Of a stretch of 60,537 nt of DNA, positions 53,991 through 59,982 are shown piece by piece. Under the pieces are notes generated by a model. The model was given only the letters and a program-made list of their open reading frames with translations. It was not told where the DNA came from and searched no databases. Source of the DNA: an uncultured Pelagibacteraceae bacterium (GTDB lineage: Bacteria; Pseudomonadota; Alphaproteobacteria; Pelagibacterales; Pelagibacteraceae). A program made the position numbers and the translations under genes. The DNA lies in contig CACFLX010000008.1 in NCBI GenBank assembly GCA_902567235.1, forward strand, positions 1-60,537. The letters run 5' to 3'. Within the stretch, counting starts at the first letter, position 1. Every line of letters begins with the position of its first letter.

Positions 53991-54004
53991 TTATTTTTGT
54001 TTTA

Positions 54005-55066
54005 TTAAAAACAAACTATATGATCAATGTAAATTGGTCTTTTAATTCCAAATTTTTCATCAACTTGATGTTGATGAATATGATGAGAATGAACTAAAAC
54101 TGGAATTAAGTGATTTGTTGTTGTTTTAAGAGTATATATAAAATTTGTTCCCCTAAACTTTCTATCAACAACCTCCAACTTTAAATTACTTTTATCATCA
54201 TGTTCCAGGTCTTCTGGCTGTAATAATAATTTTACATCTGAGCCTTTTGGATAATGTTTAATGAAATTACCTTTTATAGTGCCTAGATCTTCATTTTCTA
54301 AACTATTTTCTCCAGTTACTTTTGCGGGAATTAATATTCCTCTATTCAAAAAATTTACGACTTCTACTGAATTTGGAAAATGATAAACATTATAAGGATC
54401 ATCATATTGTTTTAGTTGATCATTTAAAATTACCCCACATTTTGATCCTAAATAAAAAGCTTCGTAAGAGTCATGAGTAACTATAATGGTAGTTATTTTT
54501 AAATCGTGTAAGAGCTTTTTTAGTTGAACTTGTATTTCTTCTTTAAAACTTTGATCAACATTAGATAATGGCTCATCTAACAGCAATAGATCAGGTTGTG
54601 TAACTAATGATCTAGCGAGAGCTGCTCTTTGTGCCTCTCCTGAACTTATTTGGTGAGGAAATTTATTTAATATTTTTTCTATATTTAATAATTTAATTAT
54701 TTTTTTTGGGCTAATTTTCTTTTTTCCATTTAGCTTTTTTGCTTTAGCTCCTAGTTGTATATTTTTTTCAACAGTGTAATGAGGAAATAAGCTATTTTCT
54801 TGAAATGATAGAGATATATTTCGATTTTCTGGTTCAATATGATCTTTTGAAGAAGATAAAATTTTATCTTTGAGTTTAATAGATCCAGATTTAATTTTTT
54901 CTAATCCAGCGATTGTTCTAAGGATAGTAGTTTTACCAACACCAGATGGTCCTAATAGACAAATTATGTCTCCTTTGTTTTCAATATTAAAAGAAACATT
55001 TTTTACTTTAGTTTTTCCACCAGCTCTAAAACTAACATTTTTAATTTCTAAAAAATTTTTATTCAT
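54005..55066 (-). CDS. fbpC: Fe(III) ABC transporter ATP-binding protein
   Basis: The 353-residue ATPase energises iron uptake. Walker A GPSGVGKTT (about 39-47), Walker B LLLLDEPLSNVD (about 160-171) and the switch His in IIVTHDSYEA are intact. The signature reads ISSGEAQRAALARSL, a variant of LSGGQ. The C-terminal about 100 residues form a TOBE-like domain. It overlaps the permease gene by 8 bases. FbpC is assigned from the FbpA-like partner. Confidence 0.9.
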   Translation of the reverse strand: MNKNFLEIKNVSFRAGGKTKVKNVSFNIENKGDIICLLGPSGVGKTTILRTIAGLEKIKSGSIKLKDKILSSSKDHIEPENRNISLSFQENSLFPHYTVEKNIQLGAKAKKLNGKKKISPKKIIKLLNIEKILNKFPHQISSGEAQRAALARSLVTQPDLLLLDEPLSNVDQSFKEEIQVQLKKLLHDLKITTIIVTHDSYEAFYLGSKCGVILNDQLKQYDDPYNVYHFPNSVEVVNFLNRGILIPAKVTGENSLENEDLGTIKGNFIKHYPKGSDVKLLLQPEDLEHDDKSNLKLEVVDRKFRGTNFIYTLKTTTNHLIPVLVHSHHIHQHQVDEKFGIKRPIYIDHIVCF

Positions 55067-56678
55067 AACTATCTCTTAAAATATATTTAGAAGTAAGTAA
55101 AATAAAGAAACTTGCAATAATTATCAAACATAACGACGGAACGGCAGCAGCTTCCAATAAATCCTCTGAAGCAGAAATATATGCTGTAGTTGCGAATGTC
55201 TCAAAATTAAAAGGTCTCAAAATTAATGTAATTGGCAATTCCCTTATTATTTCTAATGAAATTAATATGATAACAAATAGAAGTGAATTTCTTAAATAAG
55301 GAATATGAATATTTAAAAAAGTTTTTGTTTTAGAATATCCAAGAAGATAGGCGCTTTCGTCAACAGCGATATTCATTTTTTCATATCCAGATTTTATTCC
55401 ATTAAAAGCCAATGAATAAAATCTTACAAAATAAACTATTACTAATCCTAAAATGGAACCAATAAATATTTTTTTTATTGATAAAAATCCTAATGCTTTA
55501 ATCAAATTTTCATCAAACCATGCAACAAAAGTTATAAATGCAATGGCGAGAATTACTCCTGGTATAGCATAACCAGAAATTGAAAAAGTAGATAATGTAT
55601 TTAAAATTTTTTTATTTGAAACTCTATTTCCATAATTAGATATTAAGGCGAAAAATAATAAAACTAAACTTGATAAGGAAACTAAATATAAAGTATTTAA
55701 TAAAAGATCAATTATTTGGAACCCAGCTAAATTTTCAGGGAATTTAATTGTCCAATATAACATTTGGCTCAATGGAAATAAAAAACTTAAAAAAAATAAA
55801 GTGAAACAAAAAATAAATGCAAAAAAGGATTTTGCTCCATTAAGTTTAATTTTTTCTTTTTTCTTAAATCCACCTTTTACTTCCATATGGTATCTAGCTT
55901 TTTTTCTGGATAAATTTTCTGTTAAAAATAATATAAAGATAAATAATAATAGAAAAAAAGATATTCTGTTTGCAAATGCCAAGTCGTCAAAAGTTATCCA
56001 GGCATTATAAATACCAGTCGTTAAAGTGTTTACAGAAAAAAAATCTACTGCTCCGAACTCAGCTAATGTTTCCATTGCTACCAATGATAAACCAGCAACA
56101 ATAGCGGGACGTGCAGCAGGTAATATTATTGAATGAAATGATTTAAATTTTGAAAAACCAAGATTTTTGCCTAATTCTATTAGATTTTGTGATTGGTATA
56201 AAAATGATGATCTAGCAAGTATATACACATATGCATAAAGCGAAAAAGAGATTGATAATATCAACCCGTACATGCCACTAAATTTTGGTATATATTTGTT
56301 ATATTCCCCATCACCAAACAAATATTTTAAAATTGTAAAAGCAGTTCCATAATTTTCAAAAAAAGCAAATAAAGAATAAGCATATATATAAGGAGGAACA
56401 GCAAAGGAAAGTATCAAAGCCCATTTAAAAAAATTAGCACCAGGAAACTGGTAAAAAGAAACTACATATGCTGATCCTACTCCTAAAATAAATGTTAAAA
56501 ATAGAACTCCAATCAAAAGAATTAAAGAGTTAAATATATATTCGAAAAAAAATGTTTCTTTGAGAATTTCAAAATAATTCGTTGTATCTTGGAAAAAACT
56601 TGTAAAAACAGTTAATATTGGGATTGCAACAATCAGTGAAATGCTCAAGGAGCTTAAATACCAAAAATTAAATTTCAT
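55059..56678 (-). CDS. fbpB: Fe(III) ABC transporter permease (two-domain)
   Basis: The 539-residue protein is a duplicated permease with about 12 helices. Each half carries an EAA-like loop: LIELGKNLGFSKFKSFHSII (about 180) and DESAYLLGYSKTKTFLNIHI (about 440). This fits FbpB/HitB-type iron permeases. I start it at ATG 56678, preceded by AAGGCGGAT. A GTG at 56735 would add 19 residues across a stem-loop. It overlaps the ATPase gene by 8 bases. Confidence 0.9.
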   Translation of the reverse strand: MKFNFWYLSSLSISLIVAIPILTVFTSFFQDTTNYFEILKETFFFEYIFNSLILLIGVLFLTFILGVGSAYVVSFYQFPGANFFKWALILSFAVPPYIYAYSLFAFFENYGTAFTILKYLFGDGEYNKYIPKFSGMYGLILSISFSLYAYVYILARSSFLYQSQNLIELGKNLGFSKFKSFHSIILPAARPAIVAGLSLVAMETLAEFGAVDFFSVNTLTTGIYNAWITFDDLAFANRISFFLLLFIFILFLTENLSRKKARYHMEVKGGFKKKEKIKLNGAKSFFAFIFCFTLFFLSFLFPLSQMLYWTIKFPENLAGFQIIDLLLNTLYLVSLSSLVLLFFALISNYGNRVSNKKILNTLSTFSISGYAIPGVILAIAFITFVAWFDENLIKALGFLSIKKIFIGSILGLVIVYFVRFYSLAFNGIKSGYEKMNIAVDESAYLLGYSKTKTFLNIHIPYLRNSLLFVIILISLEIIRELPITLILRPFNFETFATTAYISASEDLLEAAAVPSLCLIIIASFFILLTSKYILRDSYE

Positions 56679-56770
56679 ATTATAATCCGCCTTATAAAAG
56701 AAAAGTAATTTCCTAATAAAAATTTTAGTGTCCACGTGAAAGGAGGCTTTGCAATGAGACCCAAATACAT
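56675..56770 (-). other. Possible upstream ORF (31 codons) ending in the fbpB start
   Basis: ATG 56770 lies in the stem-loop and opens a frame whose TGA overlaps the fbpB ATG (ATGA). The product would be MYLGLIAKPPFTWTLKFLLG then NYFSFIRRIII. There is no convincing ribosome-binding site, so it may be coincidental. If translated, it would link fbpB translation to the structure. Confidence 0.25.
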
Positions 56771-56779
56771 GGACACTAA
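56725..56779 (-). promoter_or_regulatory. Stem-loop between fbpA and fbpB (attenuator or RNA regulatory candidate)
   Basis: TTAGTGTCCA (56725-56734) and TGGACACTAA (56770-56779) form a perfect 10-bp stem with a 35-base loop. The region is GC-richer than its flanks. In the minus-strand RNA, the stem is followed by AAAATTTTTATTAGG, terminator-like. The loop displays GCCTCCTTTC, which resembles the 3' end of 16S rRNA and could pair with the fbpB ribosome-binding site AAGGCGG at 56687-56693. The function is inferred. Confidence 0.6.
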
Positions 56780-56791
56780 TTCAAGAAATTA

Positions 56792-56959
56792 TTAAAAATT
56801 AAATAACTTTAAGATGTGCGGAACCTCCTGGTTATTAATTTCTGATAAGTTTCTTTTATTTATTCTTTTCTCAATTTTTTTACACTCCTCAGAACATGCA
56901 GGACATGCCTCGGCTGAGTTATTATAATCGAAATCAGAAATAAATTTTTTTTCTTCCAT
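56792..56959 (-). CDS. Small Cys-motif protein (55 aa) within the iron operon, unknown
   Basis: ATG 56959 immediately follows the fbpA stop codon at 56960-56962, and the frame runs to TAA 56792. The product has an acidic N-terminus, a CPACSEEC motif (Cys19, Cys22, Cys26), a basic middle (KKIEKRINKR) and a hydrophobic end (VPHILKLFNF). No helix spans the membrane. GGAAG sits a few bases upstream of the ATG. Three clustered Cys residues beside an iron transporter suggest metal binding. I recognise no family. Confidence 0.6.
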   Translation of the reverse strand: MEEKKFISDFDYNNSAEACPACSEECKKIEKRINKRNLSEINNQEVPHILKLFNF

Positions 56960-57988
56960 TTACTTCCATCCAGCAGCTGTCATTACTTCTAAAGCAGCAG
57001 CTTGATTTTTTCCATAACTAGAAACTTTTGTTTTTAGATCTTGTTTAAAATCTAATCCTAAATTGTTTACTACTAATGGACTTGGTGAAACACCAGCAAT
57101 CATTGGAAACTCAAAAGTATTATTAGTAAAGTGCTCTTGAGCTGCAGGTGATAATAAATAGTCAACAAGAGCAATAGCATTCGCTTTGTTTGGAGCACCT
57201 TTAACTAGAGCAGCACAACTAATATTCATATGTGTTCCTCTACCGTCTTGATTTGGAAAAAATGCTTTAACTTTTTTAGCAGCTTCTTGTTGTTCTGCAC
57301 CTTTGTTACCTGATAGCATAAGAGCTAAATAATAAGTGTTAGCTACAGCTATATCAGCTTCTCCAGCGGCTACAGCCATAATTTGAGCTCTGTCATTTCC
57401 TTCAGAAGGTCTTGCCATATTTGCAACAACTCCCTTTGCCCATTCAGCAGTAGCTTTTTTTCCATTATTTTCAATTAATGAAGCTACAAGAGATTTATTG
57501 TATATGTTGCTTGACTTTCTAATTACTAATCTACCTTTCCATTTTGGATCAGCTAGACCCTCATATGACATTCCTGATAATTCAGCACCACTAACTCTTT
57601 CTGGTGAGTAGTAAATTATTCTTGCTCTTTTAGCTACCCCAACCCAGTGTGATGTTCTAAAATTTTTTGGAACAGATGATTTAATTGTCGATGAAGTTAA
57701 TCCACTTTGCGTCATACCTTTTGCTTGAAATGCTCCACATCTTCCAGCGTCAGCAGTAATATAAAGGTCCGCTGCAGAATCAGAACCTTCTTCAATCATT
57801 CTTTTTTCTAAAGCTCCTGATTTGCCGTTAATTAAATTTACCTTAATTCCAGTAGCTGCTGTAAACTTATCGTAAAGTTCTGCATCAGCTTTATAATGTC
57901 TTGCATTGAAAATATTTACCTCATTTGCTATTGCAAAAGTGGATATAAAAAATGAAAGAATTAAACTTAAAATTGATATTTTTTTCAT
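56960..57988 (-). CDS. fbpA: Fe(III) ABC transporter substrate-binding protein (FbpA/FutA-like)
   Basis: The periplasmic ferric-iron receptor is 342 residues with a signal peptide (KKISILSLILSFFISTFAIA). The N-lobe start NIFNARHYKADAELYDKF (about 24-41) matches the FutA/FbpA type. Two adjacent ligand tyrosines are in VANTYYLALM (about 219). It is the first gene of the operon and has tandem Fur-like boxes upstream. A small Cys gene and a hairpin follow before the permease gene. Confidence 0.93.
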   Translation of the reverse strand: MKKISILSLILSFFISTFAIANEVNIFNARHYKADAELYDKFTAATGIKVNLINGKSGALEKRMIEEGSDSAADLYITADAGRCGAFQAKGMTQSGLTSSTIKSSVPKNFRTSHWVGVAKRARIIYYSPERVSGAELSGMSYEGLADPKWKGRLVIRKSSNIYNKSLVASLIENNGKKATAEWAKGVVANMARPSEGNDRAQIMAVAAGEADIAVANTYYLALMLSGNKGAEQQEAAKKVKAFFPNQDGRGTHMNISCAALVKGAPNKANAIALVDYLLSPAAQEHFTNNTFEFPMIAGVSPSPLVVNNLGLDFKQDLKTKVSSYGKNQAAALEVMTAAGWK

Positions 57989-58029
57989 ATCTACCCTTTT
58001 CTCCGCACTTTTATTTATATATTATTGAA

Positions 58030-58064
58030 AATGAGAACTATTATCAATGAGAATAGTTATCAAT
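58030..58064. promoter_or_regulatory. Tandem Fur-like boxes upstream of fbpA
   Basis: Two 15-bp elements spaced 16 bases apart, TGAGAACTATTATCA and TGAGAATAGTTATCA, each match the Fur 7-1-7 inverted repeat TGATAATnATTATCA at 12 of 14 positions. They lie about 45-75 bases upstream of the fbpA start. This is between divergent-context gene ends, so fbpA is the only sensible target. Iron-loaded Fur would repress the operon. In some alphaproteobacteria Fur homologues respond to manganese, so the exact regulator is open. Confidence 0.8.
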
Positions 58065-58087
58065 CGCACTGATTGTCGCAGGTTGTA

Positions 58088-58978
58088 TTAGAACTTCCAC
58101 TCGGAAATTTTACTATAAAGGAAGTTTTTAAATGCTTGAACTCTAGCTACATTTTTCATTGATTGGGGGTATACAAAATGTGCTTCTGTGATTGGACCTT
58201 CAATTTTAGGTAATACTTTAATTAGATTTCTTGATTGAAATACTAAATAATCAGGTAAGGCTGCTAATCCCACTCCACTTTCAACAGCCAAAAGAAGCCC
58301 CATAACACTATTCACTTTCATAATAGGCTTCCTTTTGCCATTATCTTTCATGCCTACTTTTAAGGCCCAATCTGGATTGTAAACTGGTGAAGGTGCTCCT
58401 TTACCGAAAGATATGAATTTATGTTTACTTAAATCATTTAATGTCTTTGGCATTCCATATTTTTCTAAATATTTGTTGGATCCATAAATATGATAGTTAA
58501 TATCAATTAACTTTCTTTGAATATAATTTAATTGCTTAGGCCTTCTCATAAAAATACCTATATCTGCCTGCCTAGTACTTAAATCTAGTTCTTTATCATC
58601 AAATATTAATTCAACCTCTATTTCAGGGTTTAATTGCATAAATTCTTGGATTCTTGGAGTAAGCCAGTGTGTTCCAAAGCTTCTAACAGTAGTTATTGTA
58701 ATTTTTCCAGAGGGTTTGATTTTTTGATCACCTAATGAGGTTTCTACCTCTTTAAGTTTACTAATAACTTCATGTGCTGTTTTATAAACATACTCACCAT
58801 TCTCAGTTAAAGTTAATCCTCTTGCATGTCTTTCGAATAACTTTACCTTAAGATCATCTTCTAAAGATTGTATTTGTCTGCTAATTGCAGATTGACTTAA
58901 ATTAAGGGTAACAGTTGCACTTGTAAAACTCCCAGCTTCTGCAACAGCATGAAATATTTTTAATTTATCCCAATCCAT
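58088..58978 (-). CDS. LysR-family transcriptional regulator
   Basis: The 296-residue regulator has an N-terminal winged helix-turn-helix (LKIFHAVAEAGSFTSATVTL then NLSQSAISRQIQSLEDDLKV, about 6-45) and a periplasmic-binding-like effector domain. It shares one base (TAATG) with the acuI-like gene upstream, so the two are co-expressed. The effector is unknown. It may control the reductase or the nearby iron genes. Confidence 0.92.
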   Translation of the reverse strand: MDWDKLKIFHAVAEAGSFTSATVTLNLSQSAISRQIQSLEDDLKVKLFERHARGLTLTENGEYVYKTAHEVISKLKEVETSLGDQKIKPSGKITITTVRSFGTHWLTPRIQEFMQLNPEIEVELIFDDKELDLSTRQADIGIFMRRPKQLNYIQRKLIDINYHIYGSNKYLEKYGMPKTLNDLSKHKFISFGKGAPSPVYNPDWALKVGMKDNGKRKPIMKVNSVMGLLLAVESGVGLAALPDYLVFQSRNLIKVLPKIEGPITEAHFVYPQSMKNVARVQAFKNFLYSKISEWKF

Positions 58979-59982
58979 TATTTATTTAAATCAACGATGT
59001 ATCTGCCAGATGTTTCGCCTTTAAGCATCTTTGGATAAATATCTAGAAGACCTTCTAAACTAATTTCTTTAATTGATTGACTTAGTAAATCAAAATTAAT
59101 TAATTTGGCTGACTCATTCCATAAAAATTCTCTTCTTTTTGTAGATGTATTCACTGAGTTTATTCCCCAAAGCTTAACTCCTCTTATAATAAAAGGCATT
59201 ACAGTAGTATTTAATTTTATATCTGCTGCATTTCCACATGCTGCAACAATTCCAGTTTCTTTTGTTTGAGCTAATACATTTGCTAGTACTTGTCCTCCTA
59301 CAGTATCAACAGCGCCGTCCCACAAGCCTTTATCTAAAGGTCTTGAATCCTTCATTAATTCACTAGTATTTACTATATTTTTTGCGCCTATAGATTTTAA
59401 ATATTCTTTATTACTTTCTTTTCCGGTAACGGCAGTTACATTACATCCTAGTTTGTTTAAAATCATAACCGCTATACTTCCAACACCACCTGATGCCCCG
59501 GTAACAATTACATTTTCAACTTTTTCTCCAAGCAAAAGTTCTTCTCTTGCAGTTTTTGTTGTGAAAGCGCATGATAAAGCTGTAAGTCCAGCAGTACCTA
59601 AAATCATTGTCTGTTTTGATGTTAGACTTTTAGGTTTTTTTACTAAAAAATCTCCATTAACTTTAGCATATTGAGAATAACCACCATAAAAAATTTCTCC
59701 GACTCTCCATCCAGTCAATATTATTTCATCGCCAGCTTTGAATTTATCATTTTGACTTTCTTCAACAGTGCCTGAAAAATCTATTCCCGGTATATGAGGA
59801 AACTCTTTTACTAATCTTGCTCCATTTTTTAATATTAAAGCATCTTTGAAATTTAAACCTGAATAGTCAACTTTAACTAAAACATCTCCATGTTTTAAAA
59901 AAGTTTTATCAATAGATTTTATTTCTCTATTAAAATTTTCTCCCTCTTGGTTGAGAACCAAGGCTTTGAAACTTTCTGACAT
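58978..59982 (-). CDS. acuI: YhdH/AcuI-type quinone oxidoreductase (probable acrylyl-CoA reductase)
   Basis: The 334-residue NADPH-dependent medium-chain reductase has GLNFKDALILKNG and FPHIPGIDFSGTV (about 43-75) as in AcuI, and the cofactor site VIVTGASGGVGSIAVMILNK (about 157-176). Zinc-ligand cysteines are absent, as expected. AcuI converts acrylyl-CoA, formed from DMSP-derived acrylate, to propionyl-CoA. SAR11 cells use DMSP, which supports the call. General quinone reductase activity is an alternative. Confidence 0.83.
   Translation of the reverse strand: MSESFKALVLNQEGENFNREIKSIDKTFLKHGDVLVKVDYSGLNFKDALILKNGARLVKEFPHIPGIDFSGTVEESQNDKFKAGDEIILTGWRVGEIFYGGYSQYAKVNGDFLVKKPKSLTSKQTMILGTAGLTALSCAFTTKTAREELLLGEKVENVIVTGASGGVGSIAVMILNKLGCNVTAVTGKESNKEYLKSIGAKNIVNTSELMKDSRPLDKGLWDGAVDTVGGQVLANVLAQTKETGIVAACGNAADIKLNTTVMPFIIRGVKLWGINSVNTSTKRREFLWNESAKLINFDLLSQSIKEISLEGLLDIYPKMLKGETSGRYIVDLNK

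Follow-up and report, generated by a model that had tools for sequence, protein, structure and literature searches.

SAR11 bacteria, which have few transcription regulators, are among the most abundant cells of the ocean, and their fbp (sfu) operon raises the question of what a strong RNA hairpin, set between the gene of the iron-binding protein and that of the permease, does to the mRNA that carries it. A conserved RNA and a small ORF between sfuC and sfuB provide a concrete, testable site, and a conserved RNA at this junction affects how sfuC:sfuB transcript ratios are read in metatranscriptomes. The available part of PMC2864753 proposes SfuC (FbpA) as a marker of iron stress in SAR11, describes protein changes under iron stress as largely uncoupled from mRNA, proposes post-transcriptional control based on CspE/CspL, and places a putative structured region upstream of the operon rather than at the sfuC-sfuB junction. 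None of the titles and abstracts covered by our literature search shows an element between sfuC and sfuB, and the sole sfu entry in the accessible part of PMC2704228 is a spacer upstream of sfuC.

Gene order and position of the hairpin

The window, the whole stretch of 60,537 nucleotides that was analysed, comes from an uncultured Pelagibacteraceae genome of 1.13 Mb in 39 contigs (G000), and the fbp operon lies on its minus strand, as do all features below unless stated otherwise. In one scan the closest named fbpB relatives were Pelagibacteraceae, i.e. SAR11 (80 kept of 542 loci). On the mRNA, fbpA/sfuC (56960-57988), which encodes the periplasmic binding protein and matches Pfam SBP_bac families, is followed by a 55-codon ORF (56959-56792), the hairpin (56779-56725), the permease gene fbpB (55059-56678) and fbpC (55066-54005). 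The first 270 residues of FbpB match Pfam BPD_transp_1, and its start was set at the ATG 56676-56678, from which homologues align, in place of the GTG (56735) given by the mechanical ORF listing. The fbpB ribosome-binding site (RBS), AAGGCGG, was read in the sequence at 56687-56693 and is conserved in the main clade.

The small ORF (56792-56959), directly behind fbpA, encodes 55 amino acids with a CxxCxxxC motif; it has counterparts in relatives (144 of 150 loci, the window's own counted), and no family was found for it among Pfam and NCBIfam models. The sequence-only reading mentioned neither this ORF nor the placement of the fbpB RBS GGCGGA in a predicted hairpin loop. In the fbpA leader, sequence comparison identified TGCGGA (58002-58007), complementary to TCCGCA of a predicted hairpin, H1, at the end of the small ORF; upstream of it are GATAAT/TCTCATT repeats, a putative Fur-type box by their appearance. 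Within fbpB, a terminator-like hairpin with a T-run occurs at 56438-56453, and such sites are about as frequent in shuffles.

The intercistronic hairpin itself, H2 (56725-56779), was characterized by folding, shuffles, covariation and counts of G-U against A-C. The perfect 10-bp stem that had been claimed between fbpA and fbpB is present on the minus strand as TTAGTGTCCA/TGGACACTAA; it extends to 13 positions with one mismatch, the arms lying at 56725-56737 and 56767-56779 with a 29-nt loop between them. The window contains the arm pattern a single time, and none of 100 shuffles contains it. H2 was also considered as a dispersed repeat and rejected as such: the pattern occurs at two sites of the genome, one of them unpaired, leaving a single pairing hairpin, while the reversed control occurs three times per strand. 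The 141-nt region folds better than most shuffles on either strand (minus, mRNA strand: z = -2.75, with 3 of 200 shuffles as good; plus strand: z = -3.32, with 1 of 200).

Conservation and covariation of the hairpin

A search for the loop with up to three mismatches in 41 genomes matched the window's own genome only, and the fbpB and fbpA genes therefore served to gather relatives. The fbpB start region is present in 85 of the 121 genomes of the genus, and the set of 150 fbpB loci, in which some genomes appear twice, combines the loci of 70 of these 85 (30 listed and 40 fetched by place) with the 80 named loci. A small ORF lies less than 200 nt from fbpB in 122 of the 150 and further away in 22; the six loci in which none was recognised (L013, L099, L102, L107, L108 and L141) were dropped. 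When the best helix was chosen by one rule in the 124 distinct post-ORF regions, it began 8-26 nt past the small ORF's stop codon in 123 of them, and in L043 it began at 77 nt, where a second, stronger hairpin stands.

Clustering at 88% FbpB identity, with L147 left out (a single locus in which the hairpin has been deleted), gave 34 clades. The best stem exceeded all 60 dinucleotide shuffles in 24 of the 34 representatives and was matched by 1-3 shuffles in seven, while the stems of L025, L055 and L064 were equalled by 6-13 of the 60. In the alignment of the 34 representative hairpins (33 distinct), 95.3% of the cells are paired, a percentage biased upward because the arms were picked in each sequence as its best helix; the diversity of base pairs that occupy fixed columns of the alignment is the stronger point. 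Both sides have changed with pairing kept in 14 of the 15 stem pairs, and the covariation score is 0.481, against at most 0.133 when the partners are slid by 1-3 columns, which leaves 32-50% of the cells paired (maximum 50.2%). Moreover, RNAalifold recovers the same stem unaided, with 12 pairs. Stem covariation and conservation in related strains had been put forward as part of the check on the hairpin, and with these covarying pairs and its retention in relatives H2 withstands it. On a symmetric rule, 46 G-U stand against 15 A-C in the representatives and 143 against 38 in all rows; this is a ratio, A-C pairs not being absent, and the excess of G-U over A-C points to the mRNA (minus) strand as the most likely functional one. 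Taken together, comparative sequence evidence indicates that H2 is a real, selected and covarying intercistronic RNA hairpin.

The place of the hairpin also bears on the unit to which it belongs. In 22 of the 144 ORF-bearing loci fbpB begins at least 200 nt from the small ORF and the hairpin still stands directly behind the ORF, which marks the element as primarily a part of the fbpA unit's end. In 19 of these 22 loci the stretch between small ORF and fbpB encodes a redoxin-type motif, and an f2-family protein from the corresponding place matches Pfam Redoxin. Two of the other three, L043 and L135, have a second, same-looking hairpin in the gap behind the small ORF, and one of the successive hairpins combines a CUCCUU loop with a GAGTGTTCAC-type stem.

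Resemblance of the loop to the 16S rRNA tail

The H2 loop contains GCCTCCTTTC, and within it the 9-mer CCTCCTTTC (56738-56746) was compared with the 16S tail of the same genome, as taken from a 16S model, and subjected to a shuffle test. The match to the 16S 3' end that had been claimed holds for the organism's own rRNA: the tail reads GGATTACCTCCTTTCTAA, and the loop 9-mer is identical to the 3' end. Across the 34 representatives the mean loop score against the tail is 6.06, compared with 5.05 +- 0.17 in dinucleotide shuffles, none of 300 reaching it. The control tails lie slightly above their shuffles, so that a small composition effect exists: the reversed tail gave 4.99 against 4.84 (42 of 300 reaching it), its reverse complement 4.19 against 4.06 (42 of 300) and its complement 4.13 against 3.90 (5 of 300). 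Loops range from CUCCUUU through UUUACCC to none, with a score of at least 6 in 22 of the 34 representatives and below 6 in 12. An anti-Shine-Dalgarno-like character of the loop beyond that of shuffles is thus supported.

A proposed protective role at the end of the fbpA segment

For the function of H2, the reading that we favour, with confidence evenly divided for and against, is that this hairpin between the cistrons closes off the fbpA segment and shields it, and that in some clades its loop also masks fbpB initiation. H2 would act in cis on the fbp (sfu) mRNA, marking and protecting the 3' end that RNA processing, or a partial loss of read-through, leaves on the fbpA/small-ORF segment. This would yield more binding protein than permease and ATPase, on the pattern of the puf and malE operons, and the hairpin probably sets how much of each protein, iron-binding protein or permease, is made. 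Several clades may then have co-opted the loop to pair with the fbpB initiation region in an H-type pseudoknot, damping fbpB translation.

A close likeness is to intercistronic decay-barrier hairpins, such as those of puf in Rhodobacter capsulatus and malE-malF in Escherichia coli, where a stable hairpin likewise separates a gene whose product is required in surplus from the operon partners that follow it; malE, like fbp, belongs to an ABC transporter operon. Both malEFG and pufBALMX are listed as differential-decay operons in the available part of PMC5927463. What H2 shares with this class is structural, a stable hairpin conserved between two genes that belong to the same operon, the decay effect being a prediction. 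Unlike puf and malE, the SAR11 loop appears selected to resemble the 16S tail or, in certain clades, to match the fbpB start, and a small ORF precedes the hairpin. In the available part of PMC2864753, iron limitation raised the sfuC, sfuB and sfuA mRNAs of Ca. P. ubique 16, 10.4 and 5.0 fold; the order sfuC > sfuB > sfuA is compatible with a falling gradient and is no test of it.

Possible pairing of the loop with the fbpB start

A rather unlikely alternative gives masking as the main function, with the H2 loop pairing to the fbpB initiation region and restraining translation until a ribosome or a factor opens it. In the window, AAGGCGG of the fbpB RBS complements CCUCCUU with one mismatch, just as had been claimed. 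The masking built on this complement fared less well there: between -30 and +3 the window's loop pairs with its own fbpB at -6.8 kcal/mol and with the regions of other clades at a mean of -7.1, and the longest perfect complement in the window's species is 4 nt. With a longer region the best duplex reaches -11.0 kcal/mol and covers the RBS and start codon imperfectly, and 135 foreign loci average -9.7 kcal/mol, 42% of them doing at least as well as the window's own. Within the window's genus, for the region -30 to +3, own pairs gave -5.34 versus -5.12 for swapped ones (P = 0.27, 26 clusters). Masking of the fbpB RBS by the H2 loop in the window's species is therefore possible and not specific, and it is better founded in other clades.

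The evidence from these clades begins with a wide test on 138 loci, designed after the deep clades had been seen and using a region that extends up to the conserved N-I/F-W codon. Own pairs had a duplex energy of -6.49 versus -5.45 +- 0.28 for swapped pairs (P = 0.0006, 58 clusters), and so complementarity of loops to their own starts lies above that of swapped pairs. At coarser clustering, 0 of 5000 swaps did as well with 36 clusters and P was 0.003 with 17, the clusters not being independent, as at least four of the 17 representatives come from one genus; with six clusters P was 0.04 for duplex energy and 0.07 for the longest complement, and at three the effect vanishes. The tests on fbpB exclude loci in which fbpB lies at least 160 nt from the small ORF, and L147, with its deleted hairpin, is excluded from the genus-level and wide loop tests. 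The wide test further leaves out L200, L248, L257, L265 and L267, which have another gene upstream or no hairpin. From 40 extra loci it includes L176, L188, L192, L196 and L197 directly, and four further genomes of these 40 through L198, L201, L251 and L256; seven of 20 g9 loci were offered to it, plus four of six loci fetched separately. Ten of the loci L228-L247, and L200, were inspected by eye only. Against the end of the small ORF, loops did no better than swapped pairs (P = 0.89).

Genome G142 is, we assume, that of Ca. P. ubique HTCC1062. Its fbpA match ends at 1181971, and the available part of the table in PMC2704228 begins the sfuC upstream spacer at 1181972. No small ORF was recognised at this locus, and the loop AUUACCC complements the fbpB start AUGGGUAAU. 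The HTCC1062-like clade has 7-10 contiguous pairs between loop and AUGGGUAAU in seven of eight sequences, and 91.3% of this helix is paired over the eight, L256 having one mismatch and column 46-93 being unpaired in five. One pair has changed on both sides, from A-U in HTCC1062 to U-A in L199, a compensatory change in favour of masking. Perfect complements between loop and start also arise in separate clades, namely UUUAUUACCC/GGGUAAUAAA in L252 and L255, UUUACCCU/AGGGUAAA in the L029 clade, where changes in L133 and L144 preserve pairing via G-U, UAUUACCC/GGGUAAUA in L053 and L057, and CUCCUCC/GGAGGAG in L229. These sequence matches make masking by the loop plausible in sister clades. As a main function it meets, besides the short and unspecific complement of the window's species, the 22 loci with a distant fbpB and the 12 of 34 loops that score below 6 against the 16S tail.

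Leaders of the SAM-II and preQ1 type are pseudoknots that sequester the RBS. SAM-V, too, is a pseudoknot according to an abstract-level source. HTCC1062-like and some other clades likewise allow pairing between loop and initiation region; unlike in SAM-II, SAM-V and preQ1, no fixed sequence resembling a ligand pocket was seen, and loop and partner differ together between clades, while in the window's own clade the likeness to a pseudoknot is unconvincing. A control through an RNA ligand had also been suggested, and we found no evidence for it: at 54000-59000, on both strands and with E values up to 5, Rfam gave five matches, all far below their gathering scores, and hence no riboswitch assignment for this stretch.

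The small ORF and a predicted larger structure

H2 most likely sits inside a larger regulatory RNA. Two further hairpins are predicted by folding: H1 (56783-56855) is formed by the last part of the small ORF, stop codon included, and H3 (56680-56697), TTATAA[GGCGGA]TTATAA, holds the fbpB RBS in its loop. When the stretch from the small-ORF end to the fbpB start was folded in the main clade, H1, H2 and H3 appeared in nearly every sequence, H3 folding differently in L002 and L078 if the stretch ends at the start codon. In 27 of the 65 main-clade loci, thinned at 90% identity, two-sided changes occur in 7 of 25 pairs of H1, an AT-rich stretch, and in none of H3, whose near invariance leaves it without covariation evidence. 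RNAalifold offers an alternative, a helix enclosing H2 in which UCCGC of the ORF pairs with GCGGA of the RBS; this helix, too, hardly varies, so covariation is mute for or against it.

Codon counts drew attention to TTCCGCA (56817-56823) in the apical loop of H1, which appears to be held by the otherwise rare proline codon CCG. Of 94 distinct ORFs that have the E/D-x-P-H type motif, 92 use this codon for its proline, compared with 4.1% of proline codons in 44 ORFs of the window, and GAG encodes 67 of the 74 glutamates just before that proline, versus a background of 13.9%. By these counts, an RNA-level constraint near the end of the small ORF is clear. In G288 and G080 the cysteine ORF was not found, yet GGAGGTTCCGCATATCC and AAGGCGG are kept. 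L175 and L258 have no cysteine ORF that was found; a 21-codon ORF, seen by eye, crosses the kept GGAGGTTCCGCATATCC in another frame, while these loci retain the fbpB RBS.

From these elements an unlikely, more elaborate reading can be built, in which the fbpA-fbpB junction would be a multi-hairpin switch around a regulatory small ORF. UUCCGCA of H1 would pair with GCGGA of the fbpB RBS in the H3 loop and with UGCGGA of the fbpA leader, H2 would unite the partners and its loop could take over the masking, as in the HTCC1062-like clade, and translation of the small cysteine-rich ORF, perhaps dependent on iron, would open H1 and set fbpB translation. UCCGC in the ORF accompanies GCGGA, in the fbpA leader or the fbpB RBS, in 17 of 20 clades, and none of six clades without UCCGC has it (Fisher 3.6e-4, uncorrected for descent); among all loci, one of the 27 without UCCGC has both GCGGA partners. 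L009 and L050 carry UUCCGC without either partner, so that pairing of UCCGC with GCGGA is not the whole story. For the window's clade, the folding model suggests that the fbpB site is masked mainly by H3, perhaps aided by UUCCGC of the small ORF.

Less likely readings: termination, action in trans and the opposite strand

It is improbable that H2 is an intrinsic terminator or attenuator between fbpA and fbpB, as had also been suggested, although a GC-rich stem inside an AT-rich gap would suit one. The U-rich tract noted after the hairpin is present in the window, AATTTTTATTAG coming right after the stem, and is weak; a pattern scan for terminators found no site at H2. Over the 34 clades, U makes up on average 4.8 of the 10 nt after the last G-C pair, against 0.40 per base in the background, and 14 of the 34 have six U or more there. 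Certain clades (e.g. L047, L110 and L111) have a U-run directly after the stem, as an intrinsic terminator would, and several, such as L055, L058 and L066, are A-rich there instead. Because the U-tract is not conserved, a canonical terminator is unlikely, and termination falls away as a conserved function.

Hairpin loops with an anti-Shine-Dalgarno sequence are known from the Cuckoo/alpha-r14 sRNAs of Alphaproteobacteria. In the available part of PMC8625941, CcsR of Rhodobacter sits behind the small-protein gene ccaF1, and 3'-UTR-derived sRNAs of Alphaproteobacteria are described. Such a loop and a small-protein gene upstream are thus shared by Cuckoo/alpha-r14/CcsR and the SAR11 element, and the end of the small ORF with the hairpin might be processed into a 3'-UTR-type sRNA whose loop acts in trans as an anti-Shine-Dalgarno seed. 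The mimicry of the 16S tail beyond shuffles, which includes clades with a distant fbpB, and the complementarity of H1 UUCCGCA to UGCGGA of the fbpA leader would fit. We nevertheless regard such an sRNA as very unlikely: unlike Cuckoo/alpha-r14, SAR11 has a single hairpin with a variable loop, Hfq was found in none of five genomes by a search that was positive in 5 of 14 control genomes, and loops pair with the fbpA leader no better than swapped pairs do (P = 0.67). Rfam gave no Cuckoo/alpha-r14 match either, from a copy in which the family may be absent.

A tiny plus-strand gene within the inverted repeat (Shine-Dalgarno sequence AAAGGAGG, ATG and 13 codons), with its SD and start in the window and several near relatives and a plus strand that folds well too, was rejected and has next to no chance of being real, as the peptide is shared only by L002 (the window) and the near-identical L075 among 14 near relatives including the window, the others diverging, mostly within four or five codons, or lacking SD or start, and the excess of G-U over A-C favours the minus strand.

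Other hairpins occur at the same junction in some loci. Loci of the f2 family, which belongs to the same taxonomic order (L181-L187), carry another kind of strong hairpin after fbpA, its loop being ACCGTCTCTTCTTCTCATTAGTATCC or a close variant of it, and in L185, the only f2 locus read through for redoxin, the redoxin gene comes after this hairpin. L178 has a long hairpin, GGCTGTTTAGTTTA...TAGATTAAACAGCC, that ends at the fbpB start codon, and in L179 and L180 GTCTTTAGTATCC repeats form part of another hairpin.
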